Below, one piece after another: positions 5,886-63,427 of a DNA stretch of 64,000 nucleotides. Location: the NCBI GenBank assembly GCA_944384205.1, contig CALWSL010000001.1, positions 413,026-477,025 on the forward strand, in the 5' to 3' direction. Each line of letters begins with the position of its first letter. The first letter of the stretch is position 1. The translations under genes and the position numbers were made by a program. Source of the stretch: an uncultured Acetatifactor sp. (GTDB lineage Bacteria > Bacillota > Clostridia > Lachnospirales > Lachnospiraceae). The notes beneath the pieces were generated by a model, which worked only from the letters and a program-made list of their open reading frames with translations, was not told where the DNA came from and ran no database searches.

Positions 5886-5935
5886 TCTATGGCAGTCTCC
5901 TTGTTCTTCCGTCATTTGTTTATTTTTTTTCTCAA

Positions 5936-10377: not shown

Positions 10378-10389
10378 TATAATCCTCTG

Positions 10390-46175: not shown

Positions 46176-46179
46176 GCCG

Positions 46180-46731: not shown

Positions 46732-46765
46732 GGCTTTTCACCTCCTTTATACCTTTCTGTAATAT

Positions 46766-46794
46766 TAGACCTATGTTGTTCAAAAAAAGTTTCA
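46766..46794 (-). promoter_or_regulatory. ECF-type promoter of sigV-rsiV
   Basis: On the minus strand TGAAAC (46789-46794), followed by a T-run, and GGTCTA (46766-46771) 17 bases further resemble the TGAAAC ... CGTC promoters of ECF sigma factors, including SigV. Direct autoregulation is inferred. Confidence 0.6.
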
Positions 46795-46898
46795 ACTAAA
46801 AAAATTTTTAGAAGTAATTACAAGCAAAAATTTCAAACTTCAAAACTTTCAAACCGCTAAGAAGAGCATTTCATCCTAATTATGCTCTACAGCTATAC

Positions 46899-49800
46899 TT
46901 ATAAACTATTTCTAATAACAGAATAAGCATGCGGCATAGAATTCACAATTATTTTATCAGAAATCAGAATTGCTCCATTAGGTATCGTCCTGTCATCTGG
47001 ATTCCACATTGCAGGATGCACATAAATTTCTGTTTTTCTTCCTTCCCTTACGCCATAGATTTTATTGTTTTCAAAAACAATATCAAATCCTGCTTCTTCT
47101 AAACTTGCCATCTCCTTTATTCCTTTAATTAGAGTTACTTGCCTGTCATAAGGAATTGGCTCTGCCTTTGTTTTATTTTTACTCCAGTCAAGTAACTGCT
47201 TCGCCAAATGCCTGTCAAGTAGGTTTTGCACTCTCTGATTCCAATAGTGTTTCAAACAATCATGGCAAGCTGTTGCACAATGATTTTTACATTCTAACAC
47301 CTTATATGTTTCTTCCATTAAATCTACGATACGCCCTGCAAGCATTGAACTATAACCTGCTCCACTCGACAAACTATCAAACAGAAAAATATCAACACAC
47401 ACTTTATCCGGTGCATAACGTAATCGATATCCGCCTTTCAAATCATTGAATTCAACATCCAATAATTGACCAGCAGCCAAAACCATTGCCTCAGAGAGTG
47501 TTTGTGCGGCACCTTTTATCCACAAAGCATCCTGTCTGGTATTAACTTTTTTAGGATCCAAGCTTATTTCAATCAAAATCATATCCGTCAAAAAGCTATG
47601 CCCTAAAAATGCATTTATAATGCTACTATCCGGGTGTGTGCAACGAGTTCTTAATCTCGGATGTCTGTACGGCGGTCTGATTTTTTGCAGTCCGAATCTG
47701 TCATCTCCCGGAACAGCAGCTCCGCAATCTTCGCATACTGTAAAGCCCATTCCTTCAGGTCCCTGATTCAATATTGTAAGTGGTTGGTCAATCAACCGAC
47801 CATATCTTACTAATTCATAAGCATTCGGCTGCCTCATCTCATTATCTTTTATCGGAGACGCATAACTCGGTAATTCAGCATATGACATCTCTGCTTCTGC
47901 CTCAGCTTCTCGTATGCTACTTCCATCTATCGGAGCAAATCCCCAAGGCTTAATAACATGCTGGTACTTGATACTTTCTTGTAAGCAGAATGGGCATTTC
48001 TTCCCCGGATCCTCATATCCAACCCAATTGCATGCCGTGTTTTCACAATAAAACAGAGACTTGTAATACTCTTTACTTTCAAAATACTTTCTTGCCGGAT
48101 GCTCTTTATCTTCATCCTTGAATTTTGAATGGAAATTATAAATACCGCCCGACTTATATGTCTTTTTATTTACCACAATCAGCCTTCCTGGTGCATATTC
48201 ACTGATTGCCATATCTAATGCTCTATCTGGCTCTTGTTCGACCTTGCTTCCTTTGCTATCTTCAATACTAAACCCAACAACATTTCTCGGGAATGAATAA
48301 GTCGGGAATATTCCTTCTTCCAAAAACACATCCAATAATTTCTTTTCGTTGTCGTTTGAGTCATAGTAATCATCCTTGAAAGCATTTATCTTTTCCGATA
48401 GTGCTTTTACTGCTTCTATAAATTCTTGTTTTTGTCCTTCTATGAATTCTTTTTTTGACTTAGGAACCAGAGATTTAATCTCATCTTCCGTAAATCTTTT
48501 TGCTTGTACAAAAGCCAAAAATTCTTCCCTATATAAATTAAAAAATTCAATGGTGCCTACAGTATTTGCCGCTGTATCATACTTATCCAGAAATTCAGAT
48601 ACATAAATAACATTCAAATGTCGGTATATCAGTTTTCTATTATCAGTATCTATTGATGGATGACGCGGTTCACCAGCTATTATTCTTTGTGGATTATTAA
48701 AGTAATAACTATCGTGCGGTCCATTATCTGTATATGTAATAATTGTTGATATTGCAGATCCCCTTCTTCCCGCACGACCTGCTCTCTGCTGATAATTTTC
48801 ACGCATAGGTGGAATGTTTCGTAATCCCACTGCAGTTAAAGACCCAATATCAATACCTACTTCCATCGTAGTCGTGCAGCTAAGAACATCAACCGGTCCC
48901 TTATCATCTATATAGACATTCTGAAATCTCAGCTCATACTCCTCTGTAGTAGACCACATATCAATTCTTTGATCTTTATGTGATAACTGTGCTGTATGTT
49001 CTTCTGTATTAATTCTTGTCATTAGTGCATCTTTCTTTCCTGCAACAGCATCAAGAATTGGTTGTCTCCAAAACTCCAAGCCTTCAAACTCATTTTGAGT
49101 CATAACTTCCGGTGTTCCTTCACAACACCAGACACACTTATCCCAAAGAGTATACGGAAATACTCGACCACAAGCAGGACACTTATACCATGCACGTTCA
49201 GAATCAAAGTTTAAGGTAATAACTTGTGGATTCAAAAACAATCTATCATTTTCATCCTTACCTTTTTGGGTAAACTTACACAAGCTTTTATAAATTAGTT
49301 TCTGCTTATCCGGCTCTATTCCATTTCCTTTTAATAGTTTCTCGAAACGGACAGGAAACTTTCCATCAATCTCAATACCAAAACGAGGAATATTGGTCAG
49401 ACTTCTTCTAACATTTCTATTTATGTCATAATCATATGCATAACTATCTGTTAAAATCTCAGCACACCATGCTGCAAATAATCCAAAGAACTGTTCTTCG
49501 GTAATCCCCGCTTCATCTCTTTCAAGATCATCTAAAACCTCGTCAAGCAAAGTTCCATTACATGGTTCAATCCAACACAACCCCAAATCTGTAAAAGATC
49601 TGAAATTACTACATAAAATTTTAAGCAAATATCTCGAATACAACTCCGGTACAGTTGCAAATCGCTGTTTCTTTAAATCCTCATAATTGATCTTCCGATT
49701 TCTTCTTCCGCCTCTCTGAGCCTGTCTATTAATAACCTCTTTCATCTCCTGAAGATGGTCATGCAAATCTTTTTCGTCCTCACCATAGAAGAATCTTAAT

Positions 49801-52160
49801 TTATTATCCAATGCAACTTTCAGGAATGCAACATACAGCAAATCCATGCTTGCTTCATGATCGGTACTGTCAGCCCATTTTTGGAGTTCTTTGGCCGAAA
49901 CCGTCAATGCTTTTCTCATTGCATCTTCATCAGCAACGGATGTAAGTTCTTTTGCCAACGTGGCTGCCCTCTGTCTGCTATCTGAGAACAATAATACTTT
50001 TCTTCCCGCATTTGGGGTGAGCTCCAATTTCTCGGGATCAGTAATCATTGGAGGCTGTATCATCAACTGCTCTGAAACAAGATGAAAGAACGGTTCATTT
50101 CCTTTTGTTGAAAAGTCCGTTGTATGTAAGTGCATTTTCCCACATCGAGGACACGTTGAAAAAGTATACATATTGGGAGAATCTTTAGGGCTTTTCAGTG
50201 TGAAGGCAACGTGCATATATTGCGGTTCTCCTGCATGTCCATCATCCATTTCAAGACGTCCCGCAATGGAATTCAACCACCCTGTCTTAACATCTTTCCT
50301 TGCCTTAAATTGTGTATTTTCAGGAATTATATAATAATGTATTTCCTTAAAAGTTTTATCCGTGACAATACCTTTTTTATTCCATACGAAACGAGCCTGT
50401 GGTTCATCTTCATCAATGTATCCCTTTAAAAATAATGCCCCACAAGTTCTATCATTCAATAATTCATAAATTTTTCCACCACACTTACATACATCATCAT
50501 GATTACCTATGTATATCTTTCCCAAAGGCATATCCGAATCACGATGTTTTTCAGAACAATTAGGATTAGCACAAGCATAAATCCCTCCTATTCCTCGAAA
50601 CATCATATGTAATCTGGATGGAAATAATACTTGCCCCTCTTTATTTTTTGCCATCGGAGCCACTGACAATAGCACGCTTACTGCTTTTTGTGCAATCTCT
50701 TCTGAGACTTCCGGAAAAACATTTGAAGCAAGTTTTGCAAAGGAAACTGCCTTTCCTCGGCAATTTTCCATAATCTTCAAGAGCGGTTTAAGCCTTACTA
50801 ATTCTGTATACAGCCACTGCTCAACTTCTTCCTCTTTAAAAAAACTGCAATTATTTACATCTAAATTTACAATTTCTCCAAATTTCTTTATGGCAACCAA
50901 TCTATTCTCTGAATGTAATGAATCAATGTCAAATAGTGCAATTTGCTTCGGATCCACATCATAACTACGCTCGTATTGTATCTGTTCACGCTCTCCTGTT
51001 ATAATTTGAATCTCATGCAACTCTGGACTATCTACAGCAGTCAAATCGCAAATAAATTTTTCAACTTTGTCATTTTCATTCTGTGGAATACTTGCACTCG
51101 TCAATATAAACTGTAATTTTTCTCTCTTAACCCCTAACTTATGCAGAAAACGTCTTATCAATAGCGCAACTTCTCCACCAGAAGCGCCTCTATACATATG
51201 CGCTTCATCAATAATGAATAACAATTTATTATTTTCATCTTGCTCAAGCCATTTTTTAGTATCTTCCCAAATACTCTGCTCTTCTTGCCTCATCAGCATA
51301 TACTCAAGCATAGAATAGTTCGTGATTAGAATGTCTGGCGTATTGTCCTGCATTTCAAATCTTGTTATCATTTCTGCATCGCGATTATCCGTCACATGCT
51401 TTCCTTCCAACAAGCCATCTGTAAATTTCTCCATATCATATTTCGCTGGAAATTTCCCCATCTTCTTCAACTGATTTACAGTTTCTTCATCACGTGCAAT
51501 CAAATTTGAGCGTAATGTATCAGAAAGAGCTTTATCTTGCTCTCCCCTAATTTCACCTGCATATGGAGTTCTACCAGTATACATACCAAACTGAGGTCGT
51601 CTGGAAACACCGGTGTATTCAGTAAACATATCATAAAATGATGCTGTTCCTATCATACGGCGCAATCTTCCCAACTGATCTGATACAAGTGCATTCATTG
51701 GATACAGCATCATAGCCCTTACACCACGCTGTTTCCATGAATCATGATTGCATTTCGCTTCATTAATGAGTTTAGTTACCATTGGCCACATAAAACATTC
51801 TGTTTTACCGGAACCGGTACCTGTAGCCACAAACAAATCATGTTGTTTGTAAAATCCTTCTAAAGCCTGAACCTGATGAGCATACGGACTCTTATACACA
51901 CCCATTTTACGCTCAATCATCTGCTTTAATATTACCTTTATACCAATTGGAATATCTGCATTTTCTATTCCGTCACGAAGTGACATATAAGCCGTATTCG
52001 CCTCGATATATGGTTCCTTCCACATTACTCCTTGCGCTTCCAATTCAGTTCTGCACAACTCACGCAGTTCATCATTTTTTCCAAAATATGCTGTTTCAAC
52101 ATAATCGATTAATCTCTGTTTTAAAGCCTCATGCGTATTTTCAATACTGTATTCATCCAT
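46899..52160 (-). CDS. Giant DEAH helicase with DUF1998/MZB domain (DruE-like defence protein)
   Basis: A 1753-residue superfamily 2 helicase. Walker A GTGSGKT is at 114-120, DEAH (FIIDEAHMYRG) at 318-321, SAT-like LTSASIP at about 354 and motif VI QRAGRAGRRG near 1125. Zinc-type pairs include YKCPACGRVF, CVWCC, CENTACNWVG and CPFCLQ. The C-terminus has the DUF1998/MZB cysteines CKNHCATACHDC near 1630. The size and order (helicase after a DNA methyltransferase and two unknown proteins) fit DruE of Druantia type II better than DrmA of DISARM. The gene is complete. It is separated from the rest of the system by the IS110/IS21 insertion, and a possible own promoter lies at 52211-52239. Confidence 0.75.
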   Translation of the reverse strand: MDEYSIENTHEALKQRLIDYVETAYFGKNDELRELCRTELEAQGVMWKEPYIEANTAYMSLRDGIENADIPIGIKVILKQMIERKMGVYKSPYAHQVQALEGFYKQHDLFVATGTGSGKTECFMWPMVTKLINEAKCNHDSWKQRGVRAMMLYPMNALVSDQLGRLRRMIGTASFYDMFTEYTGVSRRPQFGMYTGRTPYAGEIRGEQDKALSDTLRSNLIARDEETVNQLKKMGKFPAKYDMEKFTDGLLEGKHVTDNRDAEMITRFEMQDNTPDILITNYSMLEYMLMRQEEQSIWEDTKKWLEQDENNKLLFIIDEAHMYRGASGGEVALLIRRFLHKLGVKREKLQFILTSASIPQNENDKVEKFICDLTAVDSPELHEIQIITGEREQIQYERSYDVDPKQIALFDIDSLHSENRLVAIKKFGEIVNLDVNNCSFFKEEEVEQWLYTELVRLKPLLKIMENCRGKAVSFAKLASNVFPEVSEEIAQKAVSVLLSVAPMAKNKEGQVLFPSRLHMMFRGIGGIYACANPNCSEKHRDSDMPLGKIYIGNHDDVCKCGGKIYELLNDRTCGALFLKGYIDEDEPQARFVWNKKGIVTDKTFKEIHYYIIPENTQFKARKDVKTGWLNSIAGRLEMDDGHAGEPQYMHVAFTLKSPKDSPNMYTFSTCPRCGKMHLHTTDFSTKGNEPFFHLVSEQLMIQPPMITDPEKLELTPNAGRKVLLFSDSRQRAATLAKELTSVADEDAMRKALTVSAKELQKWADSTDHEASMDLLYVAFLKVALDNKLRFFYGEDEKDLHDHLQEMKEVINRQAQRGGRRNRKINYEDLKKQRFATVPELYSRYLLKILCSNFRSFTDLGLCWIEPCNGTLLDEVLDDLERDEAGITEEQFFGLFAAWCAEILTDSYAYDYDINRNVRRSLTNIPRFGIEIDGKFPVRFEKLLKGNGIEPDKQKLIYKSLCKFTQKGKDENDRLFLNPQVITLNFDSERAWYKCPACGRVFPYTLWDKCVWCCEGTPEVMTQNEFEGLEFWRQPILDAVAGKKDALMTRINTEEHTAQLSHKDQRIDMWSTTEEYELRFQNVYIDDKGPVDVLSCTTTMEVGIDIGSLTAVGLRNIPPMRENYQQRAGRAGRRGSAISTIITYTDNGPHDSYYFNNPQRIIAGEPRHPSIDTDNRKLIYRHLNVIYVSEFLDKYDTAANTVGTIEFFNLYREEFLAFVQAKRFTEDEIKSLVPKSKKEFIEGQKQEFIEAVKALSEKINAFKDDYYDSNDNEKKLLDVFLEEGIFPTYSFPRNVVGFSIEDSKGSKVEQEPDRALDMAISEYAPGRLIVVNKKTYKSGGIYNFHSKFKDEDKEHPARKYFESKEYYKSLFYCENTACNWVGYEDPGKKCPFCLQESIKYQHVIKPWGFAPIDGSSIREAEAEAEMSYAELPSYASPIKDNEMRQPNAYELVRYGRLIDQPLTILNQGPEGMGFTVCEDCGAAVPGDDRFGLQKIRPPYRHPRLRTRCTHPDSSIINAFLGHSFLTDMILIEISLDPKKVNTRQDALWIKGAAQTLSEAMVLAAGQLLDVEFNDLKGGYRLRYAPDKVCVDIFLFDSLSSGAGYSSMLAGRIVDLMEETYKVLECKNHCATACHDCLKHYWNQRVQNLLDRHLAKQLLDWSKNKTKAEPIPYDRQVTLIKGIKEMASLEEAGFDIVFENNKIYGVREGRKTEIYVHPAMWNPDDRTIPNGAILISDKIIVNSMPHAYSVIRNSL

Positions 52161-52210
52161 TTAGTTCTTCTCTCTATACTTTCTTATTTATTTTGCACAA
52201 AAAAGCTCTT

Positions 52211-52239
52211 ATTTTAGCCATTTGTGCAATGGTTTACAA
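52211..52239 (-). promoter_or_regulatory. Candidate promoter for the helicase gene
   Basis: Minus-strand -35 TTGTAA (52234-52239), 17-base spacer and -10 TAAAAT (52211-52216). The spacer holds a palindrome CCATT/AATGG (52218-52232). It could keep the helicase expressed after the IS split the operon. Confidence 0.5.
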
Positions 52240-52615
52240 AGTTACAAACAATGATAAGCTTTCATTAATGGGCGAAAACTGTGTCATTTCAGGTTCAATG
52301 CACGTATGTTTCCAGTCAGAAAGGTGCACGAAATAAAACGTCATCTTTTTTATGAAGGCGATTCTGTGTCCCATTCTTCTCTATGGCTGCTAACCTCTCA
52401 TGTCTAACAGGATCATCCTCTACTACAAGGATCCTAAATTCCTTCGTCCAGCCTACCCATAGTGGGGTGCCACTTTTGCTCCTTATCAGGGTCATGCCCT
52501 ATAATAAATGTCTTAGCGGCTTCGCTCTGCTTTGTCATTGCCAGAGAGCACTCCTGTAATCCAGCACCAATTGAATCCTTGGCGGACGTTATCTGTTACA
52601 GTATGTGCTTTTTTA
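52240..52615 (-). other. 3' non-coding part of IS110-family element and junction
   Basis: About 375 bases between the IS110 transposase stop and the helicase promoter. The part nearest the transposase (about 52340-52615) is non-coding on both strands and contains several short inverted repeats such as GTGGCACCCCAC. A long 3' non-coding region is where IS1111-type members of the IS110 family encode their bridge RNA. The part near 52250-52340 has a 35-codon open frame (DWKHTCIEPEMTQFSPI) without start codon and may be host-gene or IS-end sequence. The exact element end cannot be placed. Confidence 0.45.
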
Positions 52616-53253
52616 TTAGGCTGCTTCCTGCCTGATGATGTCCCTTCGGAACTTCTCCTCATCAAAGTCGCAGCCTGTTTGTAATACTACGTAGAATACT
52701 CGTATTGCCTTACACGCAACTGCTATCTTTGCCTGCATTCCTCCTAGCGGATTCTTAGTTCTGTTCCTGTAATAAAGGAAAACATCCTGAAATGCCGGAT
52801 TCCAGTTCATTAATGCACATGCTGATTCATACATGGTTCTTCGTAGTTTTCTTCTGCCCCTCTTACTGATTCTTGGCTGACCTTTCTTCTTACCAGAACT
52901 CTTTTTGACTATTTCCAGTCCTGCAAGTTTCTGTATCTTCTTAGGGTCAGTGAAACGTCCGATATCACCAACCTCTGCGACAAAGCCAATCACAGTACTC
53001 ATCCCTACTCCTTTCATGGCGAGCAGTTTCTCCACATTTGGTACTTCTTTTACTTTTTCTTCCAGGTACTCATCAAGTCTTTTTAGCTGTTCTGCTTTCA
53101 GGATGTAGTCTTTTACAAGAACCCAAATCTCAAGTCTTGCAGCCTCACCGGCTTCCAGTCCCACACTGTTTTGTGCAGCTTCTACCAGGGTCTGTGCCCT
53201 CTTTATTCCTGCCGCACGCACCTTTGCATCACGCCATATCTGATTGATTCCAC
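52616..53253 (-). pseudogene. IS110-family transposase, 3' half
   Basis: Begins at GGINQIWRDAKVRAAGIKRA right after the IS21 insertion and continues through the Transposase_20 domain: VEKLLAMKGVGMSTVIGFVA, IGRFTDPKKIQKLAGLEIVK and the serine-nucleophile region RRTMYESACALM. Joined to the 5' half across the 5-bp duplication, the frame is restored (KIG-A-GGINQ). The helical extension VLDKKQ at the start is IS21 sequence. Confidence 0.85.
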
Positions 53254-53346
53254 CTGCTTGTTTTTTGTCAAGCACTTTTCCCTGAAAAAAGCGTTAAAAT
53301 TCCCTGTTTCCGTCGAGGGATTTTCCCTGCTTTCAGCGGGTACTAT

Positions 53347-54102
53347 TTATGCATCCCGGCGCATGAGGGCGTGTTCCATCCGGTAACTTTTTCCTTCGAA
53401 GATCAGCAGATGTCCATGGTGGACAAGACGATCGATCATAGCTGCCGCCATCTGGTCATCTGTAAAAATACCGCCCCATTTGGAAAACTCCAGGTTTGTA
53501 GTTAATATCAGGCTTTTGCTTTCATAGCTGTCAGATATCACCCGGAACAGCAGCTGCGATCCGTCCTTGTCCACTGGGACATATCCCCATTCATCCAGAA
53601 TAAGCAGGTCAAGACTGCGCAGATCCCTGAAGAGACGCTCCAACGTCCCATTTTTGCGGGCTTCCGCCAACTTTAGCACAAGTTCTGTTACGGTATAAAA
53701 TTTTGTCTTATAACCGAGATTACAGGCCTTCACGCCAGCCGCTATTGCCATATGTGTTTTTCCAATGCCCACCGGGCCATAAAGTACCAGATTTTTCTTC
53801 CCGGGAACAAACTCCAGCGCTTCAAGCTCCTCCCTGCAGAATGCAGGGGGAAACTTTACATTTTTGTAACTGTAGTCCTCGAAGGTTTTATAGATTGGAA
53901 AACCGGCACGTTTGACCAGACGTTTCCGGCGGTTTTCATCCCGCAGGGTAAGTTCCTCATTCATAAGCTCCAAGACGAATTCCAGCTGTTTCTGGGTCCC
54001 TTTTTCCAGACAGACCTCAGAGATCCTGCTGGAAAGGAACAGCTGCCTGCTTGCCTCAAGTATCCGGGCGCAGAAATCTTCTTTCATTTTCGGCGTCATC
54101 AT
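53347..54102 (-). CDS. istB: IS21 helper ATPase IstB
   Basis: A 251-residue AAA+ protein that selects the target and activates IstA. Walker A GPVGIGKTHMAIAAG near 109, Walker B LLILDEWGYVPVD near 172, sensor region LILTTNLEFSKWGGIF, arginine-containing IDRLVHHG and the C-terminal DnaC-like end. Full length. Confidence 0.93.
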   Translation of the reverse strand: MMTPKMKEDFCARILEASRQLFLSSRISEVCLEKGTQKQLEFVLELMNEELTLRDENRRKRLVKRAGFPIYKTFEDYSYKNVKFPPAFCREELEALEFVPGKKNLVLYGPVGIGKTHMAIAAGVKACNLGYKTKFYTVTELVLKLAEARKNGTLERLFRDLRSLDLLILDEWGYVPVDKDGSQLLFRVISDSYESKSLILTTNLEFSKWGGIFTDDQMAAAMIDRLVHHGHLLIFEGKSYRMEHALMRRDA

Positions 54103-55574
54103 GATACTGCGCCCCCTTTCTTCAGGAATGCTTCGTCATACGCTTCTAGCGATGGACCAGCCTCCGGAGGCGTACAAATGCCATAACCGGTAATCCGGGC
54201 AGCCAGTACGGAAGCATCACAGATGTTGATATTTCCTCTCGCGCAGGCCATTTCCATGGCACTGGCTGCTGCATGGAATCCATACTGGTTGGTCAGTTCA
54301 TTCATGATCCGCAGGCAGTCTTTCAGTTTCTCTTTTGGCTGGGCATCCATGTAGGTACGCAGGGCATCTGGGGTCTCGCGGCGCAGTCCGCTGTTCCCCC
54401 ATGCACCGGAGTTTTTCATAAGAACAGCAAGAGTCGTGCTGTGATCGCTGATATCCGTACGGCCTTCGCCAAAAGCACGCCGGTGGGTAGTGGTAATCTG
54501 CCCTCCTTCCGTAAGGATATCTACCGTATGGGCATGTATCCCGACCAGCACCTTTTGATTGGCGTTTTCCGGCATGGTGGAATAAAAATGCTTCCCATCC
54601 ATACAGACTTTTCCATATCCATCCGCTTTCAGCCACTCATACCTGCAGACATTGAATCTCTTGGGCGGCAGCATCAGGAGCGCTTTCCTGTCTTCTTCAA
54701 AGAGTTCTCCGATAGGCACCTGCTTTTTGTAGTGAAGTTCAGCAGCTTTCTTTTCATGCTTAAGGAGCAGTTTCTGATTGTATTTTTCAATCTCTGTGAA
54801 ATGCGGAACCGGAACAAACAGGTTTGCACGGTTATAATCCACCTTACGCTCCACGTTCCCTTTTTCCCAGCCGGAATAGGGATTGCAGAACCGGGCCCGA
54901 AAATGGTAGTGGGCACGGAAACGTGAAAAGAGTTCTGATTCATGGATCGCATCGCCAATCCTCCGGCCAACGCCGGTCGCATTGTCAAAGATCAGTAATG
55001 GCGGCACACCGCCAATAAATTCGAAGATATCCTGAAGCCCCTGGCAGACACACTCAGCGGTTTCCCCACCGAACACCTGGCTGTAACCATCATTGCTGTA
55101 GGGGAATGACACGGTAAGGTACTTCTTGCGGCAGAGTTTCCCTGCTTCATAGAAATCTGCTTCGCCAAAATCCACCTGTGCAGGGCCGGGATCCCAGATC
55201 AGTTCCAGGTTCGCTTTCTCCGTCTGTATAGAACGGCACTTTTTCATATAGCGCTGGACAACACTGTAGCTTCCGGTATAGCCTTGTTCCTCTATCAGCC
55301 GCTCATAGACCCGCTGGGCGGTGTGGTGTTGTTTACGCCAATGCTTTTTATCCTCCTCCAGCCATTCCTGTATAATTGGTTTAAAAGGATCCAGCTTGGA
55401 AGGCTTTCCCATCGTAATTGGTGGCTCAGGAGAAAAATCATCCTGAGAGAGATATTTCCGTATTGTTTTTGGATCCGCACCGGTTTTTTCAGAGATTTCA
55501 CTGATACGGTATCCACAATTGCTCAAATCTTTGATATGATTGATTTGGGACATAGTGAGCATCTTCGAATCCAA
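54099..55574 (-). CDS. istA: IS21 transposase IstA
   Basis: A 491-residue DDE transposase: N-terminal HTH (QINHIKDLSNCGYRISEISE), catalytic core with Asp in PAQVDFGEADF, Asp in LLIFDNATGVG and Glu in YSGWEKGNVERKV, and a C-terminal beta-barrel/HTH region. The start may be the ATG at 55562 or an upstream TTG. ATGA overlap with istB. Complete. Confidence 0.93.
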   Translation of the reverse strand: MDSKMLTMSQINHIKDLSNCGYRISEISEKTGADPKTIRKYLSQDDFSPEPPITMGKPSKLDPFKPIIQEWLEEDKKHWRKQHHTAQRVYERLIEEQGYTGSYSVVQRYMKKCRSIQTEKANLELIWDPGPAQVDFGEADFYEAGKLCRKKYLTVSFPYSNDGYSQVFGGETAECVCQGLQDIFEFIGGVPPLLIFDNATGVGRRIGDAIHESELFSRFRAHYHFRARFCNPYSGWEKGNVERKVDYNRANLFVPVPHFTEIEKYNQKLLLKHEKKAAELHYKKQVPIGELFEEDRKALLMLPPKRFNVCRYEWLKADGYGKVCMDGKHFYSTMPENANQKVLVGIHAHTVDILTEGGQITTTHRRAFGEGRTDISDHSTTLAVLMKNSGAWGNSGLRRETPDALRTYMDAQPKEKLKDCLRIMNELTNQYGFHAAASAMEMACARGNINICDASVLAARITGYGICTPPEAGPSLEAYDEAFLKKGGAVS

Positions 55575-55734
55575 CTTGTTGGATTTATCCTCCTTTATCT
55601 TTGGTCGTGCTTAGATAAAGGATAATCGTAATGTAGGGGGGATTCAATATGTCCCGCCTTTTTTAGGGAAATTCCCTTGCTGATTTCAGGGAATTCTGAC
55701 GCTTTTTTTCGGTAATTTTATTGTATCATAAACA

Positions 55735-56371
55735 CTGCTCCGATTTTTAAGATATCCTGTGGTAGTGGTGCCTCCTTAAGAAGCATAAGTCCACTGGTGG
55801 AATCCCAATCGGCATAACACTCAAAATACTCTGGGAAGAACTTTTGAAGCCATCCCTGTATCTGATTTGACAGACGCACATGCTGTTTCATGATCTGGTC
55901 TCTGCAGACAGAAGCCTCTCTAATCTCTGCATACACACCACTTGGAAGATAAGAAGTTGAATACCTTCCATCCTTCACAAGTAACGCAATGGTCTTGGGA
56001 TCCTTTAAATCACTTTTCTCAGGGCTGTTATCATCCAGTTCCATGCTTCTGTTAACTGTAAACGGATTAACCGTTACAAGCTGGATATCGTGGTCCTGTA
56101 AGAACTTCTGAAAAGTAAGCCAGTAGCAACCGGTAGGCTCACAGCCGACAATCACCTTCTTCATTTCGGTTTTATTCATGAGTTCCTCTGTCCACCTGAG
56201 GAAAGTAAGGAATCCCATTCCGGTGTTGCTAAACTTAAACACTCTTCTGGAAAGTTCAAATCCCCTCCAGTCAAACGCTCTGCAGAAGTGAGTTTGTGAT
56301 CCAACATCAACTCCCACAATTAAAGTGTCACTTGTTACTTGCTTTAGTCTGTCGTTCTGTGTTAAATTCAT
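55735..56371 (-). pseudogene. IS110-family transposase, 5' half
   Basis: DEDD (RuvC-like) N-terminal domain: LIVGVDVGSQTHFCRAFDW with the first Asp, KKVIVGCEPTGCYWLTFQK with Glu, and SDLKDPKTIALLVKDGRY with the paired Asp. The frame enters IS21 at KIGAV and stops at 55718. The start is the ATG at 56371 (MNLTQNDRLKQ), seven bases after GGAGG. Confidence 0.85.
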
Positions 56372-56448
56372 TTTGAAACCTCCAGTATTCTTAAAGTGTT
56401 TTTTCATCCGCCAAGATGAACACCTTAATTGTACTTCGAGGTTTCTTT

Positions 56449-57498
56449 TTATTCAATTGGCGTTATTTCTGAATTACAGGAATGCTCCTTAAAATCAATA
56501 CCTAAACCATCGGTAATAATATTTCTTATATTCTCCCATATAAAGCTGGGTACAACATAATTGTATTTATCATCCATTGAATTTAACGGCCAGCAATATG
56601 TATCTATTATCGCCTGCTCTCTTAATGGCAAACCACAATATAAACTCAACAGGTACACTGTATCCCTTTTATTATATGTCGCCTGCATTATATTTCCAGC
56701 ATGTTTTCGGAGTGCTAATAACACTCTTCTTTCTTCCTTCCATTCAGCTAATACTGTTGTAATCGGTGAATTCCAGTATTTATCATGCTCTTTTTTTATC
56801 AAATGGTATTCATGTAAGCCATTGTAAAGTGCTAGTCTTGCAAGAATTTTCTTTTCGTTATTTGGAACTGCATTTGTCCATGATTGATAGGGCGGTCTCT
56901 TACTAAACGGATTAAAAAACTCAAACGCATCTATGTTGCGGCATTCAGTCCATGATGCTCCTGCATATAGCCAGTCAATATACTCATCAATATCAATCCT
57001 ATCCACTGGGACTCTATTTTCATTATCCCCTTCAGTGCGAACAATTCTGGTTACCCCGACATGCTCCAGTCTACTTATTTCTTCTGATAGACCGGTCACT
57101 CTATCGTAATCATCGGTACAATAACGTTTCTCATATACCGGTAATCCAATATTCCGTGATTCATCAATTTCCATTAACTCACCGGCGGCTAACATTTTAT
57201 CTCGCAATGCTCGAACTAATTCATCGCCATCAACCGGATTTTTCAAATCCTTAAAAATCCACTTTTTACACACCGGAAATGCATCTGACATAATAACCAG
57301 CAGTTCTTTTATCCTGCTTAATACGTATGCCTTGCTTTTTCTGTCATACTTCTGAGTGGTTTCATCCATAACAGAATATCTCATCCAATGACATAACGCA
57401 CAATAAATAACTCTTCCAGCATAATTAGTCTGTGATTCACCAGCATACGGTTTTATTCGCATGTCTTGTGCCATTTTTGTTAAAGCATTATTATCCAT
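56449..57498 (-). CDS. Defence-island protein of unknown function, 349 residues
   Basis: A soluble, mixed alpha/beta protein (CALCHWMRYSVMDETTQKYD, VCKKWIFKDLKNPVDGDELV, NIDAFEFFNPFSKRPPYQSW, YCGLPLREQAIIDTYCWPL). I recognise no family. It lies 11 bases downstream of the 127-residue gene in the same operon. The stop is four bases before the IS110 boundary region (TAA, then AAAGAAACC), so the C-terminus may have been cut by the insertion. Confidence 0.6.
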   Translation of the reverse strand: MDNNALTKMAQDMRIKPYAGESQTNYAGRVIYCALCHWMRYSVMDETTQKYDRKSKAYVLSRIKELLVIMSDAFPVCKKWIFKDLKNPVDGDELVRALRDKMLAAGELMEIDESRNIGLPVYEKRYCTDDYDRVTGLSEEISRLEHVGVTRIVRTEGDNENRVPVDRIDIDEYIDWLYAGASWTECRNIDAFEFFNPFSKRPPYQSWTNAVPNNEKKILARLALYNGLHEYHLIKKEHDKYWNSPITTVLAEWKEERRVLLALRKHAGNIMQATYNKRDTVYLLSLYCGLPLREQAIIDTYCWPLNSMDDKYNYVVPSFIWENIRNIITDGLGIDFKEHSCNSEITPIE

Positions 57499-57508
57499 AC
57501 TCTCTTAC

Positions 57509-57892
57509 CTATTTCACCGGAATTGTTATTCCACTCTTATTTAGAACATCCCCTAAATTTTCATCCTCCGAACAGACATCACACGCATATACAATACCTT
57601 TCTGCATAATTTCACCCAATGTGTTTCCTCCTACAAGTATGAAATACAATTGCAACAAGTTACTATACTCAATTGAAACTGATTTTCTTATATAACCATT
57701 CTTTACCAGTCTGCTAAATGTCTTTTTATATATTTCCTGACTTTTCCTCATATCAAGTTCCGGAATAAGTGGTTTCAAATCATGATTACCTATCAGAAGA
57801 TAGTCTTCAACCGGAAAATGCAGTTCATTTTCCGCATCTATTACAATTGCATAATTCAGCATTGCTTTAGACATCATTTCCAAGTTCTTCAA
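57509..57892 (-). CDS. Small defence-island protein or frameshifted C-terminus of the coiled-coil protein
   Basis: 127 residues. The frame begins with TTG overlapping the TGA of the preceding gene (TTGA) and reads LKNLEMMSKAMLNYAIVIDA, FPVEDYLLIGNHDLKPLIPE and SRLVKNGYIRKSVSIEYSNL, a winged-helix-like end. No strong ribosome site precedes it. The junction reads as a natural continuation (YLFFAVS then LKNLEMMSK), so one lost base may have split a protein of about 660 residues. ATG at 57877 is an alternative start. Confidence 0.6.
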   Translation of the reverse strand: MKNLEMMSKAMLNYAIVIDAENELHFPVEDYLLIGNHDLKPLIPELDMRKSQEIYKKTFSRLVKNGYIRKSVSIEYSNLLQLYFILVGGNTLGEIMQKGIVYACDVCSEDENLGDVLNKSGITIPVK

Positions 57893-59496
57893 ACGGACAC
57901 GGCGAAGAACAAATACTTTGCTTTACACACTTCACACATTCTTGCAAAAAGAATTTCGTTATAATTATCCAAAATCCCTTTTATACATACCACTTGAGCT
58001 TCACTTTCATTGACGATATCAACAAGTATCTTCAAACTCTCTTTTTCCGAATCAATATTAATTACCAATGGCGAACTTTCGTGTAGCAAAGCTGCGAGTG
58101 CCTCGGATAGATAAGTACATACTTTATCAATTGCAATTATTCCCATTCCGTGTAAAATAGCCGCCAAAACAGCACCGGCAACTTCTGTTTCATTATCAAA
58201 ATACAAAGATATATTTGTCTTATAATCTTCAAAAAAATCTTCTATAGAACTGACATCTGCTCCATATTCTGCATTTTCATCAAACTGTCTCGCCGGTATT
58301 ACAACAACATCGGATAAATTTGAACAAACCAAGGTTTCATCTGAATTTGTATTATCCCTTTGATTCTCATATCCTAATTTTTGAAATATGATAGAATCTA
58401 TTTTTCTTTCAATAACTCTTTGTTCAAATGATTCAAAATATCTATCTTCAATAGCATCCAATTCCTGAATGTAATTATCAAGTTCCTTCTTTCTTTGTTC
58501 AAGACCATCAACCTGTTCATCCAATACTTTTTTCTTATCAGTCAACTCTGCCACTTGTAATCTAAGTTCTGCCAATTCATTGGACAACATCTCCTCTGAA
58601 GAAATTAGTTGTTTCCGATATTGTTCCTCCAGCTCTGCTCTCTTTTTCTCCGCTTCTGCCTCAAGTGCAAGCAACAGATTCTGGTACTTTGCTTCAGCTT
58701 CATCAGATGCATTTTTCCGTTGTATATCATCTGCCACTTTTCTTGCTTCGAGTTCTTTTTCATACTCGGAGAACCATTCCTCTTCTCTTCTTTTCCTTTC
58801 AGCCTGCGTTATATTTTCGTGTTTTTTCAATCTTTGTTCTGTAGCACTCAGCTTCTCTTGAATTTCTTTATATATTACATTTTTTTCTTCAATTTGTTTC
58901 CTTAAATCACGTTTTTGCTGTTCAAAGTCTACCGATAGCCTCTTCTCCTGCTCCTTTAATGCTTCCTGAATTTCCTCCAGATGCTTTGCTTCAAGCGTTC
59001 TTGCCTGACTGATATTTTCTATCTCCGCCTCTATCCCTTCACGAATCTCTTTTTCAATCATAATATCCTGAAGCTTAAGAAAAATGAAAAACAAATCAAT
59101 TGATATATCTGTAGCTGAAACATCTAAAATTCTAAAATATAACTCCGCCATTTCCTTTATATTGTATGCCTTTATGTCATCAACACAAATAGCTGGCTCC
59201 ATGCACTTCGATATGGCTTCCCTAAACTTTTCCCTGTATGTATCCAACTGAGTTGCAATAGCCGCTCTAAATGGTTCTTCACCTTTTTTGAATAGATTAA
59301 ATGCAATCCCCGGAAGTAGTTTTTGTACTAATGCAGATTTTTTATCTAATCTGCCTAATATTTTCGCGTACTTTATGTATCGTTTGTCCTTTATCGGTAT
59401 CAAAAAAAGTGTAAGATCCGCATTTTTACAAACAGTATTTATTTCCTCCTCGTTAAAAAGATCTAACAATTCAAAGTTGATTTCAATTTTGCTCAT
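57889..59496 (-). CDS. Coiled-coil defence-island protein (possible DruG/DruF-type component)
   Basis: 535 residues. The helical N-terminal domain has FELLDLFNEEEINTVCKNAD and CVDDIKAYNIKEMAELYFRI. A long charged coiled coil spans about 160-380 (LEEIQEALKEQEKRLSVDFE, AELEEQYRKQLISSEEMLSN). The C-terminal globular part includes VVVIPARQFDENAEYG, IVNESEAQVVCIKGILDNYN and CKAKYLFFAVS, suggestive of an ATPase-like or regulatory fold. RBS GGAGG is good; overlaps the upstream gene by 14 bases. A structural or sensing role in the defence complex is inferred. Confidence 0.65.
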   Translation of the reverse strand: MSKIEINFELLDLFNEEEINTVCKNADLTLFLIPIKDKRYIKYAKILGRLDKKSALVQKLLPGIAFNLFKKGEEPFRAAIATQLDTYREKFREAISKCMEPAICVDDIKAYNIKEMAELYFRILDVSATDISIDLFFIFLKLQDIMIEKEIREGIEAEIENISQARTLEAKHLEEIQEALKEQEKRLSVDFEQQKRDLRKQIEEKNVIYKEIQEKLSATEQRLKKHENITQAERKRREEEWFSEYEKELEARKVADDIQRKNASDEAEAKYQNLLLALEAEAEKKRAELEEQYRKQLISSEEMLSNELAELRLQVAELTDKKKVLDEQVDGLEQRKKELDNYIQELDAIEDRYFESFEQRVIERKIDSIIFQKLGYENQRDNTNSDETLVCSNLSDVVVIPARQFDENAEYGADVSSIEDFFEDYKTNISLYFDNETEVAGAVLAAILHGMGIIAIDKVCTYLSEALAALLHESSPLVINIDSEKESLKILVDIVNESEAQVVCIKGILDNYNEILFARMCEVCKAKYLFFAVSV

Positions 59497-61060
59497 TAAG
59501 TATTTCCTCCAATACCTTTATCATTGCCGTAGATATACTGTTACTTTTTAATACATCATCAATATAGTTCCTCGACAACGTGACTTTCTCTTGAATTTCA
59601 TATATTTGAATTCGTACTTTGTGCGGTAGTTTTACCTTTTTTGTTCCTTTGTACTTTCTAAACAAACGAAATAATTCTTCATCACTTATCGTCACGTTTT
59701 CTTGCTGTTTTTCTATAGATACAGCGAGAATACTAATAAGGAGTCTGTTCTGTAATACATATATCAAATCACCATCTTGCAGATCCTCAAAAATATACTC
59801 TCCAATACCGCCATTCTTTTCTATTCGTCCACTCTTTCGAATCAAAATAAAATCCGTCTGGTGACCAGATTGAAATAATATCTTTTTGCAATTTCTACAT
59901 ATGTTTCCTTTTTCAAGCGCAACACACTCATCATCTATCAACTCATAAACATCGGCATCATTCGATATAATGTTTCTCGATCTCTTTAGAAGTAATGTTC
60001 CGCTCGAAACATATTTTCGGTCTATATTAACTAAAGCTTCTTGATCCCATACTCTAACGCATGTTAAATGATTGGCTGAGACTAATTCATCCGGAATTTT
60101 TCTTATTCCCTGATAAACATATATCCTCGGATTATCATTCCCCGAAACAACATATCCATAAACACTTTGTTCTCTATTATTGATGATATATCCATCTTCC
60201 GTCTTCACGACAGGCGGCCATATTGGTACAAATTCAGGTTGCTTTTCGAGAAGATGAATTTTTAAATTTGACCTTAAGTATGATGTAAGGTAACTAAACT
60301 CTGAGTCTGAAATATCTGATGAAAATGACCCACAAAAAACATTTAAGACATTATCCTTTAATATAAGTCTCCCACATTTTTCCATATCAATCCCCGGTAT
60401 ATTATATGGAAGCTGTGGTTGGCGACGCACCCAATAATACTCAACATCAGTAGTTATGGAGTCTCCATATCTAATTTTCTTTCCACCTTGTTCAGATACA
60501 ATAAATATCGCTCCCTCAAATGAAAAGCCATCTGCATAATCAGACCAATGCTGTGAGACTGCCAATGCTTTATTCATTGGTTCGTAACAAATATAATACT
60601 TGTGCCCAGACAAAGGGATATAGTCCAACGGTATTAAAGCAGTATCTTCACAGGAAAATCTTTCATTATTAATTCTATATGTATTCTTTCCACCAATCTT
60701 TACTGATACTGACTCCTTAATTGCTTTTTCCATAAGCCCAGACGGTAATGCCTTAAATCCCATATATAAATAAAAGTCACCTGAAGAAATTTTTCGCATA
60801 TAGATAGGCAATCCTATCCGCTCATAGACGGAATCCGTTGGATTACCATCAACTCGCCTATCACATTCCACAGAAACATTATTATTTTTATCCGGATAAT
60901 GGGCAAAATGATTATTTTTTCCATTACCAGTTAAATGAACTGCCTCTCCACATTCCGGACAAATAAATCTATCCCTACTATAATATCGAGAGCGGTCGTA
61001 TTCATCTGCATTCGCCTCTTTTTGTTTTCCTCTTGCATAAAAATCCAAAGCAGTTTTCAT
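59483..61060 (-). CDS. Zinc-finger defence-island protein with CoiA-like N-terminus
   Basis: About 525 residues from the ATG at 61060 (MKTALDFYARGKQKEA), eight bases after GGAGG; the frame extends to 61141. FICPECGEAVHL and NNHFAHYPD form a Cys2His2-type site as in CoiA-like proteins. A second pair lies in ICRNCKKILFQSGH. The middle is beta-rich (DFYLYMGFKALPSGLMEKAI). The catalytic nuclease motif of CoiA is not evident. Next to the methyltransferase and nuclease genes, it may recognise DNA or the complex; function unknown. Confidence 0.62.
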   Translation of the reverse strand: MKTALDFYARGKQKEANADEYDRSRYYSRDRFICPECGEAVHLTGNGKNNHFAHYPDKNNNVSVECDRRVDGNPTDSVYERIGLPIYMRKISSGDFYLYMGFKALPSGLMEKAIKESVSVKIGGKNTYRINNERFSCEDTALIPLDYIPLSGHKYYICYEPMNKALAVSQHWSDYADGFSFEGAIFIVSEQGGKKIRYGDSITTDVEYYWVRRQPQLPYNIPGIDMEKCGRLILKDNVLNVFCGSFSSDISDSEFSYLTSYLRSNLKIHLLEKQPEFVPIWPPVVKTEDGYIINNREQSVYGYVVSGNDNPRIYVYQGIRKIPDELVSANHLTCVRVWDQEALVNIDRKYVSSGTLLLKRSRNIISNDADVYELIDDECVALEKGNICRNCKKILFQSGHQTDFILIRKSGRIEKNGGIGEYIFEDLQDGDLIYVLQNRLLISILAVSIEKQQENVTISDEELFRLFRKYKGTKKVKLPHKVRIQIYEIQEKVTLSRNYIDDVLKSNSISTAMIKVLEEILNEQN

Positions 61061-61091
61061 GCGACTTCCTCCCAATATCGTAACTCTCTTC

Positions 61092-61832
61092 TTAATCTCC
61101 CGAATTAAATTCAACCAACTTTTCCCAATCAATAGCCCCATCTTCTTTACAGAAACTATTTGAGAACTCTCTGATTAATCTGTTTGCCGCCTTATTGTAA
61201 CTTTCCTTATAAGAAGCAACATATTGTTCCGGCATGGTTCCCATAAAGTTGATTATCTTAATATAAAATTCTTCATCTCCAGTAAGTTCTGCCCAGAACT
61301 GCTTTCCAGCTAATTCCTGATACATCTTCGGCTTCCCTCTGCCACTATCCTTTTTCTTACCGTAACAGTACCCGATATAAGCCTCATATCTTGCCTTTGC
61401 CTGCTGTGCCAATTTTGCTGCTGCCATAAAATTCTGTTCCTGGCGTTTTTTGCTATCGGCATTAAATACAGAAGGGCCACTCTTCACAGCTATAGCATAG
61501 ATTGTATTACTATCATCATCTTGTATCATCAAATCAATACCTTCTGCCAAGGCTTTGTTTCCACCACTTACTGCTATAGCAATTGGCTCAAAAAAGCAAT
61601 TTCCGAAAATTGTCTCCTCGCTGGATGTCACAAAGGCACTTAAAACAGATTCCACTATCTCTGAAGCACTTTCCATTGCCTTTGCCCGGTACAAATATGG
61701 ATTCTTTCGCTTTATTACTTTCTTGATATCAAGAGTATCAATTTTTTCTATCAAGGTTCCATAAAATGTTTCCAATGCTTTTGCTATAGCCTGTACTACT
61801 TCTGCTTCATCATAAGAATTGTTAATCGCCAT
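61092..61832 (-). CDS. PmeII-like type II restriction endonuclease
   Basis: 246 residues. NPYLYRAKAMESASEIVESV, FVTSSEETIFGNCFFEPIAI and LAEGIDLMI followed by IYAIAVKSGPSVF match the PmeII family. The putative PD-(D/E)XK residues are Glu73, Asp100 and Lys117. It directly follows and overlaps the cytosine methyltransferase by 11 bases, as in a restriction-modification pair. The recognition site is not predictable by eye. Confidence 0.78.
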   Translation of the reverse strand: MAINNSYDEAEVVQAIAKALETFYGTLIEKIDTLDIKKVIKRKNPYLYRAKAMESASEIVESVLSAFVTSSEETIFGNCFFEPIAIAVSGGNKALAEGIDLMIQDDDSNTIYAIAVKSGPSVFNADSKKRQEQNFMAAAKLAQQAKARYEAYIGYCYGKKKDSGRGKPKMYQELAGKQFWAELTGDEEFYIKIINFMGTMPEQYVASYKESYNKAANRLIREFSNSFCKEDGAIDWEKLVEFNSGD

Positions 61833-63027
61833 ATGAATTTCCTCCTAATTCCATTGCATTTTTAATTCTATTGTGTACGCTGGTTCCTCTGAACCGCTTT
61901 GTTTCTATGGTTGATGTCCTATTTGCTGTAGAAATAATTGCTCTACCAATAGCTTCGGCCAATCCAACAGGAACTGCATTTCCAATTTGCCTATATTGTG
62001 CAGATATTGTTCCCGTAAATTTCCAATCATCCGGAAATTGCTGAATTCTGGCATATTCTTTTATGCTCAATGGTCTATCCTGTCTCGGATGACAAAGCAT
62101 TGTCGCTTTTTGTGCCGGTGAAGTTGTAATTGTGGGAGATGGTTGCTTATATGATAATCTACGGTAAAACCCTACTTTTCCACCACCAGACTCATAAGCT
62201 CCTCCCATAGCAATAGGAATCACTTCTTCGGGCAAATCTCTCCAATTTCCACCTTCCGGAACCATGTGAAGATATTTTTTTCTATCACCACTTAACGGTG
62301 TGTACTCGCCCGGATTATTTTCCAAATCTTTTATAGCCTCACCAACTGTTTTCCATCTATAATCTGGATTTTGATGCGTTTGAAAATGAGTCGGTATTGG
62401 CAAGAATATATCCTCATTATCTCTGCTACCTATCAATACAAAACGTTCACGGAACTGCGGCACGCCATAATTTACAGCATCTAAAATTCCGTAAACTGTT
62501 TTATATCCCAACTTGTTAAATTCGGACAAAATAACATCTAAAACTGTTCCCGGTTTTTGCTCCGGCTCATCCTTAACTCTTTCTTCTGTGGAAACATGTT
62601 TCAACGGTGAAGAAACTATACCCTTTACATTTTCCATCACAAAAAATCTTGGGCGAATATAATCTATCATTCTTATAAAGTCCATAAAAAGACTTCCTCT
62701 CGGATCATTAATTCCAAGTCTTTTTCCAGCAGTAGAAAAAGGCTGACAAGGCGGTCCTCCACAAATCATAAATGGTTCACCTACATGCAATCCGGTCAGT
62801 TCCAGAAGTGTCTCCGGCTTTATTTCTCTAATATCTCCCCCGAGTACGTTATGACCATTAGCCTTCATCGTTTCTACACACGAAGGTTCAAAATCCTGAC
62901 CGATAACCACATTAAGTCCTGCCTTTCCAAGACCAATATCCAGTCCCATTGCCCCCGAAAACAATGAAATCACATCACGATTATTTTTATATTTCTCGCG
63001 TACTTCTTCTAAATTAAAGTTTTTCAT
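61822..63027 (-). CDS. DNA (cytosine-5) methyltransferase
   Basis: 401 residues. Motif I LFSGAMGLDIGLGKAG, motif IV GGPPCQPFSTAGKR with catalytic Cys (about residue 94), motif VI ENVKGIV, motif VIII RERFVLIGSRD, motif IX YKQPSPTIT and motif X RQIGNAVPVGLAEAIG. The target-recognition region between VIII and IX is full length. The ATG at 63027 overlaps the XRE stop (TGATG). It protects host DNA from the neighbouring nuclease and helicase system. In Druantia type II the methylase would be DruM. Confidence 0.92.
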   Translation of the reverse strand: MKNFNLEEVREKYKNNRDVISLFSGAMGLDIGLGKAGLNVVIGQDFEPSCVETMKANGHNVLGGDIREIKPETLLELTGLHVGEPFMICGGPPCQPFSTAGKRLGINDPRGSLFMDFIRMIDYIRPRFFVMENVKGIVSSPLKHVSTEERVKDEPEQKPGTVLDVILSEFNKLGYKTVYGILDAVNYGVPQFRERFVLIGSRDNEDIFLPIPTHFQTHQNPDYRWKTVGEAIKDLENNPGEYTPLSGDRKKYLHMVPEGGNWRDLPEEVIPIAMGGAYESGGGKVGFYRRLSYKQPSPTITTSPAQKATMLCHPRQDRPLSIKEYARIQQFPDDWKFTGTISAQYRQIGNAVPVGLAEAIGRAIISTANRTSTIETKRFRGTSVHNRIKNAMELGGNSYGD

Positions 63028-63236
63028 CAAACTTCTTCTCCGTCATCTAATATAAATTTTCTTTCGAAGGTTGTTCCTGTTGCCTCAGCAATCTGCTCCA
63101 AGTCAGATACTGTAAATGTTTCTCTCTTAAGCTTAGCATTCAGATTCTGAGGTGACATTCCCATTCTGCGAGCCAATTCTGAAACACTAATATTAGTTCG
63201 CACGCATAATACTTTTATTTGTTCTGATATAGTCAT
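63027..63236 (-). CDS. XRE-family controller protein
   Basis: A 69-residue helix-turn-helix protein (IKVLCVRTNISVSELARRMG, MSPQNLNAKLKRETFTVSDL, GTTFERKFILDDGEEV), first gene of the defence operon. It is coupled to the methyltransferase by TGATG. The palindrome flanking its promoter suggests it controls its own operon, like C proteins of restriction-modification systems. Confidence 0.88.
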   Translation of the reverse strand: MTISEQIKVLCVRTNISVSELARRMGMSPQNLNAKLKRETFTVSDLEQIAEATGTTFERKFILDDGEEV

Positions 63237-63270
63237 AATGGTACCTCTTTAAAAATTCAACAGCTACATT

Positions 63271-63311
63271 GCAAGTATAAAACACAGAGTTTAAATAGTC
63301 AATATACTTGC
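63271..63311 (-). promoter_or_regulatory. Defence-operon promoter inside a 9-bp inverted repeat
   Basis: Minus-strand -35 TTGACT (63297-63302), 17-base spacer, -10 TATACT (63274-63279). GCAAGTATA (63271-63279) and TATACTTGC (63303-63311) are a perfect inverted repeat flanking the two boxes and covering the -10. This looks like an operator for the XRE controller. Confidence 0.75.
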
Positions 63312-63373
63312 TAATATATGGTATTTATGGTTTTATTGTCAGGTTTCTATTGTTAATGCTATAAAACAATGAA

Positions 63374-63410
63374 CAAAAAAACTGCCAACACTTCATCGTG
63401 TTAACAGTTC
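63374..63410 (-). terminator. Intrinsic terminator of serine recombinase
   Basis: AACTG-AACAC and GTGTT-CAGTT arms with GATGAA loop, followed by TTTTTTT on the minus strand. It separates the recombinase from the defence operon. Confidence 0.88.
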
Positions 63411-63427
63411 TTCTGTAAGTTTATGTT

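Follow-up and report, generated by a model that had tools for sequence, protein, structure and literature searches.

The window analyzed here is a 64,000-nucleotide (nt) stretch of an uncultured Acetatifactor sp. genome (GenBank assembly GCA_944384205.1, contig CALWSL010000001.1, positions 413,026 to 477,025 of the forward strand). It carries a leftward operon in which three restriction-modification genes, for an XRE regulator, a C5-cytosine DNA methyltransferase (C5-methylase), and an EcoO109I-family endonuclease, stand directly before four genes of Druantia type I character, for proteins like DruB, DruC, DruD, and DruE (Table 1). We refer to the two parts as the head and the body. The joint between them recurs in other bacteria, DruA was not found in the window system, and in this genome the body is interrupted at two places.

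Restriction head and Druantia body

The head looks like a complete type II restriction-modification pair and appears intact, no break being seen in it. Its three genes overlap one another, and a PF14511 nuclease adjoins a C5-methylase, the pairing of EcoO109I-type systems. The nuclease matched PF14511 with an E value of 1.5e-67 (227.7 bits, cut-off 22.5), and the methylase matched the Pfam DNA_methylase model with an E value of 2.3e-70 (238 bits, cut-off 22). Against PADLOC models the methylase scored higher as a plain type II methylase (340 bits) than as DruM2 (308 bits) or DrmMII (286 bits). Single-sequence and profile searches of the nuclease against solved structures yielded no EcoO109I entry.

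The helicase of the body matched PADLOC DruE1 at 1915.1 bits over residues 1-1751 of 1753, the next match being DruE2 at 653 bits; its Pfam domains are DEAD, Helicase_C, and MZB, making it a helicase of the DUF1998/MZB type. The 349-residue protein matched DruD1 (E value 1.1e-27, residues 3-340). The DruB-like protein gave a weak match to PADLOC DruB1 (E value 2.6e-6, residues 37-175 only) and matched the Pfam CoiA N-terminal domain (E value 6.4e-7), and hhalign comparison with Pseudomonas putida DruB gave a probability of 92.7% in the zinc domain. The hhalign probability for DruC against the P. putida protein was a weak 34%; the position of the gene fits DruC. Structure modeling and motif counting for DruC were done on the proteins of relatives: in the model of a relative's DruC a long coiled coil is accompanied by an AAA+-like domain at the C-terminus, and the Walker A motif is kept in 0 of 32 rows. 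The order of the body genes matches that of DruA-B-C-D-E on the P. putida plasmid pKF715A. A Pfam scan of DruB, the DruC pieces, DruD, and DruE found no nuclease domain, and for DruB no nuclease was among the Foldseek and VIA-align matches listed.

DruA stands first in the operon on plasmids of P. putida and Nitrosococcus watsonii. In the window its place is taken by the XRE, methylase, and EcoO109I-family nuclease genes. The DruA model PF14236 (DUF4338), which matched both of the two plasmids used as a positive control, had no match in the organism's own genome or in the 36 relatives' genomes searched; these came from 37 of the 43 loci described below (all but L009 of the 37), and some are incomplete metagenome-assembled genomes (MAGs). 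Because DruA, the defining component, was sought and not found, the system is by its gene content a DruA-less variant rather than a full member of Druantia type I. Excerpts of PMC10853773 term DUF4338 a GNAT (GCN5-related N-acetyltransferase) domain, and given that label we dropped the idea that DruA is itself a nuclease.

Table 1. Features of the operon and adjoining DNA, in window positions
Feature	Position	Strand	Remarks
Integrase, C-terminal part	63428..64000	-	phrog_95; serine type by sequence reading; context upstream of the operon, outside the system
Promoter-like site	63274..63302	-	TTGACT, 17 nt, TATACT; before the XRE gene
XRE/helix-turn-helix regulator, 69 amino acids (aa), head gene 1	63027..63236	-	End overlaps methylase start
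C5-cytosine DNA methyltransferase, 402 aa, head gene 2	61822..63030	-	PCQ, ENV, and GNAV motifs present
Type II restriction endonuclease, 246 aa, head gene 3	61092..61832	-	Pfam EcoO109I family, PF14511
DruB-like protein	59483..61060	-	CoiA-type zinc ribbon, then beta-sandwich (immunoglobulin-like) domains; frame open to 61141
DruC-like protein, first piece, 535 aa	57889..59496	-	Helical at the N-terminus; long coiled coil; degenerate AAA+-like domain in part
DruC, second piece, 127 aa	57509..57892	-	Out of frame with the first piece
DruD, 349 aa	56449..57498	-	PADLOC DruD1; last residues from the inserted element
Inserted DNA, IS110-type element with IS21-type element inside	52173..56484	-	Absent from four relatives compared
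IS110 transposase, N-terminal piece	55718..56407	-	DEDD domain, PF01548
IS21 transposase IstA	54099..55574	-	
IS21 helper ATPase IstB	53347..54102	-	By position and sequence reading
IS110 transposase, C-terminal piece	52616..53275	-	Transposase_20, PF02371
DruE (type I group), YprA-family superfamily 2 helicase, 1753 aa	46899..52160	-	GTGSGKT, DEAH, QRAGRAGR, and four-cysteine motifs

Recurrence of the joint

Scanning the genome collection with patterns derived from the window's own DruE gave 43 loci. In 34 of them the front was readable, that is, at least 1.5 kb upstream of druB was present or a head was visible (hence locus L013 is counted); the other nine end too early. Eight of the 34 have an EcoO109I head (L007, L008, L009, L010, L015, L016, L040, L043), four an Eco47II head (PF09553; L011, L013, L017, L030), one a methylase alone (L018), and 21 neither, meaning no type II head of these two kinds and no C5-methylase in front, with upstream genes scanned in part. 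The gene order of the window, without its insertion, is found again in the eight EcoO109I-headed loci, XRE being found in six of the eight, DruC being assigned by position in L016 and L043, druB being split in L007, and L040 ending inside druE. L012 and L040 belong to a single MAG as separate contigs, and in divergent loci generally DruB and DruC were assigned by position. When the DruE1 model was run on 397 genomes of the same bacterial family, 16 matched at 1e-100 and 10 of the 16 exceeded 1400 bits; the front was readable in five of those 10 loci and carried a head in two, the window and G317, the latter probably the same record as L015 and so not an independent case.

The joint is tight as well as recurrent. 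The druB start used in relatives corresponds to window 61060, 31 nt past the nuclease stop, and with starts chosen by a shared N-terminal motif, 20-41 nt separate head and druB in 12 of the 15 loci measured, across two unrelated nuclease families. The exceptions are L013 (-4 nt), L030 (66 nt), and the methylase-only L018 (2 nt).

Two kinds of departure from the head-body plan involve methylases. In L018 an EcoO109I-group methylase stands before druB and lacks an adjacent nuclease gene; this methylase is sister to the nuclease-linked methylases of L009 and L010 (support 97/93), which points to loss of the nuclease with retention of the methylase and, as a single case, hints that a methylase by itself can be of importance to the body. 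In a clade of Druantia I bodies a D12 adenine methylase lies behind DruE (L083, L084, L085, L089, L090; identified by Pfam in L083 and by similarity to L083 in the others, with a shorter copy, 282 nt away, in L089); of these five, two have a readable front, both headless. L044 has a C5-methylase behind DruE.

Several further loci bear on the variety of bodies and their neighbors. Two headless bodies have type I restriction genes ahead of druB, perhaps as further kinds of head: in L034 (2561-5872) an HsdS gene and a DUF2971 gene lie close to druB, and L046 (1963-5118) has an HsdR gene upstream. The DruE proteins of L019, from a MAG named Prevotella, and L049, from [Clostridium] aerotolerans, are nearly identical (tree path ~0.01), through either recent transfer or mis-binning; behind its DruE, L049 carries genes for an NgoPII-family nuclease and an adenine methylase. 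A scan of viral contigs with the nuclease gave three loci, and the frames of one (L093) match those of the L016 operon in size, on sizes alone.

Separate histories of head and body

The window's nuclease is 80-97% identical to those of the eight other Druantia-linked heads and 68-96% identical to those of five heads that do not precede DruB. The bodies diverge far more in some of the same loci: L016 has 83% identity in the nuclease and 53% in DruE, L043 has 86% and 52%, and identity falls to 31% in DruB and 24-27% in DruD. By these comparisons heads and bodies evolve apart. On a quick-method DruE tree of 49 rows, the EcoO109I label (eight rows) takes four changes, at least three of them forced, and the Eco47II label (four rows) three changes, all three forced; all labels together take eight changes versus 14.2 in shuffles. 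On the head tree, the nine Druantia-linked and five other heads are intermixed (three changes, two forced). The head of L060, which precedes Wadjet genes, branches within the Druantia-linked ones (set of five, 100/99), and the DNA similarity between L060 and the window ends at window 61090, two bases past the nuclease gene and beside its stop codon. A break point there is the trace that a swap between head and body would leave.

Heads occur before quite different genes. After EcoO109I heads we found a methyl-directed nuclease that overlaps the head by 4 nt (L058; PADLOC mREase_II, 456 bits), an HD-CE/HATPase protein with no PADLOC match (L059), Wadjet JetA and JetB 313 nt on (L060; JetA1 750 bits, JetA and JetB being the Wadjet genes checked), a second C5-methylase followed by a GmrSD-type protein (L061), a second C5-methylase on a 3.3-kb contig (L051), and another architecture (G383). 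Among the 13 PF09553 places of a 387-genome sample at which DruB does not follow, the next gene was scanned in seven. In L120 (1-5785) an Eco47II pair is followed 44 nt on by a CBASS (cyclic-oligonucleotide-based antiphage signaling system)-type cyclase and then an E2/E1-type protein, giving another kind of body downstream of a restriction head. In L122 an Abi_alpha protein follows, and the five other next genes scanned are housekeeping-like or unclear.

Probable damage to the body in this genome

The druC gene is broken. Its 535-aa frame aligns with residues 1-534, and the 127-aa frame with residues 536-662, of the intact 662-aa DruC of L007 and L040; laid on the window, the intact L007 protein runs from 59496 to 57895 (residues 1-534) and continues in another frame from 57892 to 57512 (residues 536-662), and the L040 protein does likewise. 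We considered the 127-aa frame as a new component and rejected this, since alignment to intact relatives identifies it as the broken-off end of DruC. A programmed frameshift was also rejected: inspection by eye showed no usual slippery run in the 71 bases around the break, and the intact relatives need none. It is possible that the break reflects an assembly error instead of a real lesion.

The second interruption is a 4.3-kb insertion, an IS110-type insertion sequence with an IS21-type one inside it, between druD and druE. It is missing from L007, L008, L040, and L029, in which the match to window 56485 runs straight into the match to 52172. In relatives lacking the insert druD and druE abut, and L007 shows druD running into druE; in the window the insertion replaced the final residues of DruD. 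A second copy of the IS110 5' part was not found in the organism's own genome. Because the druC frame is broken and the insertion separates druD from druE, the Druantia half is probably damaged, or not functional as it stands in this genome. Decay or assembly faults in such operons are not rare, since druB is present as two tandem copies in L040 (4067-6989) and split in L007 (5421-6982), and druD is split in L017 (8954-10002).

About 400 non-coding bases (52173-52600) follow the IS110 transposase; some IS110 elements carry a guide RNA in such a stretch. These bases had no Rfam match, nor did any other part of positions 46000-64000 at the gathering threshold. At the other end of the operon the contig ends 25 bases past the window, so that the integrase piece lies near a contig end. 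The window's first 12,000 bases (1-12000) hold a low-GC cluster that reads as a flippase, glycosyltransferases, and an acyltransferase, probably for a cell-surface polysaccharide.

Promoter-like and target sites

Promoter-like sites as a whole are no commoner in the DNA than in shuffles (55 found, 50.6 expected). The TTGAC box before XRE is kept in eight of 10 aligned heads, both Druantia-linked and other. On the operon strand, the stretch from the nuclease gene to druB holds no terminator-like site, and weak ones occur within druB (59869-59857) and druC (58173-58160).

The prototype specificities are RGGNCCY for EcoO109I and GGNCC for Eco47II. The window has 37 GGNCC sites versus 117 in shuffles, and seven RGGNCCY sites versus 27. 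With a stricter expectation the GGNCC ratios are 0.64 (window), 0.54 (EcoO109I-headed loci), 0.47 (Eco47II-headed loci), and 0.57 (headless clostridial loci). GGNCC avoidance was therefore rejected as a sign of an active head, since clostridial loci without a head show it just as strongly. Of the palindromes of the form XYNY'X', none is avoided more than GGNCC in the clostridial sets, regardless of an adjoining GGNCC-type restriction system; this does not hold for the Bacilli set.

Discussion

The available parts of PMC7251935 describe Druantia type I, after Doron et al. 2018, as DruA-DruB-DruC-DruD-DruE. The window system shares with it DruE1, DruD1, a DruB-like zinc protein, and a coiled-coil protein in the place of DruC, in the same order, but has a type II restriction-modification head where DruA would be. 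From the other side, it has the same three genes (nuclease, C5-methylase, small helix-turn-helix regulator) in the same order as Druantia-free EcoO109I-family systems, but with a four-gene Druantia body close downstream; its specificity is presumed. In excerpts of Bell et al. 2025 (PMC12458937), Druantia types I and II are named 'Type IV CoCoNuT' (coiled-coil nuclease tandem) after inactivated CnuB/McrB-like GTPases, and an inactivated Vsr nuclease domain is predicted in type I DruE; the relative's DruC, with its coiled coil and an AAA+-like domain lacking Walker A, may correspond to the former. Druantia IV, given as DruE, DruF, and DruL in the consulted sections of the PADLOC paper (PMC8565338), differs from the window system. 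Among the open-access titles and abstract openings searched, a restriction-headed, DruA-less Druantia I was not among the matches listed; the supplements of PMC12458937 may list such forms.

The initial annotation had leaned toward Druantia type II (DruM-DruF-DruG-DruE), counting the nuclease and the 127- and 349-residue proteins as extras to it, and had also proposed a hybrid of restriction and Druantia defense. The hybrid is what we found, a complete type II pair joined to a Druantia body by a joint that recurs, and the gene order was indeed met again in other genomes. The 127- and 349-residue proteins are a fragment of DruC and DruD itself. The genes of the leftward operon from XRE to helicase are present as annotated, except that the 127-aa frame does not stand for a separate gene and that the IS110/IS21 DNA between druD and the helicase gene had gone unlisted. 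As for the concern that the helicase might be unlinked from its neighbors in relatives, DruB, DruC, DruD, and DruE stay together, whereas the restriction pair occurs both with and without Druantia. The type II leaning did not hold. A C5-methylase in the operon is shared with Druantia type II, and a C5-methylase plus a DUF1998-type helicase with DISARM (defense island system associated with restriction-modification) class 2, and the methylase does match DruM2 and DrmMII; however, it matches a plain type II methylase better and has a nuclease partner, and the helicase falls in the DruE1 group, far above its DruE2 score, with helicase and zinc module in one protein. Along with the DruD1 match and the weak DruB1 match, proteins 2-6 had no PADLOC match to DruF or DruG at E ≤ 0.1, and neither was among the best 25 helicase or the best 25 methylase matches. 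DrmA reached at most 48 bits, in partial matches, and DrmB was absent among the best 25 of 32 helicase matches. We regard membership in Druantia type II or DISARM class 2 as very improbable.

We think it probable that the locus is a two-part defense operon, in which an exchangeable restriction head precedes a DruA-less Druantia I body and the two act in layers. The head would be a portable type II cassette, and head and body together would most likely be transcribed from the promoter-like site before XRE. The methylase would mark the host's own DNA, and the nuclease would cut unmarked incoming DNA as a first layer. In the second layer DruB, with its zinc ribbon and immunoglobulin-like domains, and DruC, with its coiled coil and dead AAA+-like domain, may recognize DNA or serve as scaffold, while DruE, as an ATP-driven helicase, would load on single-stranded or 3'-tailed phage DNA. 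From its position behind the head, the body would stay subject to the regulator encoded there, and cooperation between the two parts is possible.

Closer integration would make head and body one machine, in which methylase marks tell the body what is self and the nuclease supplies cuts or ends for DruE, as is thought for DruM in Druantia II or for DISARM. The absence of a recognized active nuclease from DruB-E by Pfam, together with the inactivated Vsr domain predicted in DruE in the excerpts of PMC12458937, is what such a machine would look like, and the five related bodies with an adenine methylase behind DruE also fit it. So does the filling of one slot by two unrelated nuclease families whose prototypes have overlapping specificity, and so does L018, which keeps its methylase directly before druB; but L018 is a single case that could be a recent loss, and its nuclease was looked for beside the methylase only. 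Against integration, 21 of the 34 readable bodies have neither a type II head nor a C5-methylase in front, heads of this kind are found before Wadjet genes, a methyl-directed nuclease, and other genes too and so are not dedicated to Druantia, and GGNCC avoidance lends no support, being as strong in headless clostridial loci. We place integration on the unlikely side. At the opposite extreme, a mobile restriction-modification system may have landed by Druantia in a defense island, with no functional or regulatory link. Defense genes do cluster in general, the cassette is mostly found without Druantia, and integrase genes or pieces adjoin both the window operon and L018. Chance proximity nonetheless appears improbable, given a joint that is on the same strand with a gap of 20-41 nt in 12 of 15 loci, that is made with two unrelated nuclease families, and whose head labels each take at least three changes on the DruE tree.

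Several observations weigh against a two-part, layered operon with an exchangeable head. The 43-locus sample is tilted to near kin by its window-derived DruE patterns. In it, 21 of 34 bodies lack a type II head, so the body can do without such a head; ahead of some headless bodies lie type I HsdS (L034), HsdR (L046), or GmrSD (L022) genes, as in any defense island. All headed rows of the DruE tree fall within one clade of 24 of the 49, so that a single early joining followed by swaps and losses is possible. Heads are seldom followed by DruB: PF14511 occurs at eight places in seven of the 397 genomes of the family, two of the eight being before DruB (the window's own and G317); in a sample of the class it occurs in five of 376 genomes including the own one, with DruB following in none of the other four; and of 14 PF09553 places above cut-off in 387 genomes, DruB follows at one (G018). 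The identification of the body genes has its own gaps. PADLOC DruC had no match in the window's first piece or in the five relatives' DruC proteins scanned, hhalign showed no similarity of DruB to a 955-aa N. watsonii protein or of DruC to the N. watsonii protein in the DruB/C place, and BLASTP with the N. watsonii protein in the place of DruD had no match.

A wider proposal extends the two-part reading. Restriction cassettes would be exchangeable front ends for various bodies (the Druantia I core, Wadjet, a methyl-directed nuclease, and, for Eco47II, CBASS), joined through recombination where the nuclease gene ends, with the promoter and regulator of the head imposing restriction timing on the body and the head replacing DruA through self-marking and DNA ends. 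This full form we hold to be rather unlikely.

In the literature examined, the mechanism of Druantia type I is not worked out. Bodies fronted by a restriction head, those with a lone methylase, those with another methylase behind, and those that have none of these amount to natural gene-swap experiments, and the set suggests that the core is DruB-C-D-E and that DruA or a head is the exchangeable part. With this variety, a need of DruE for self-marking or pre-cut DNA becomes open to test. An annotation rule that requires DruA may, moreover, miss systems in Clostridia and their kin.

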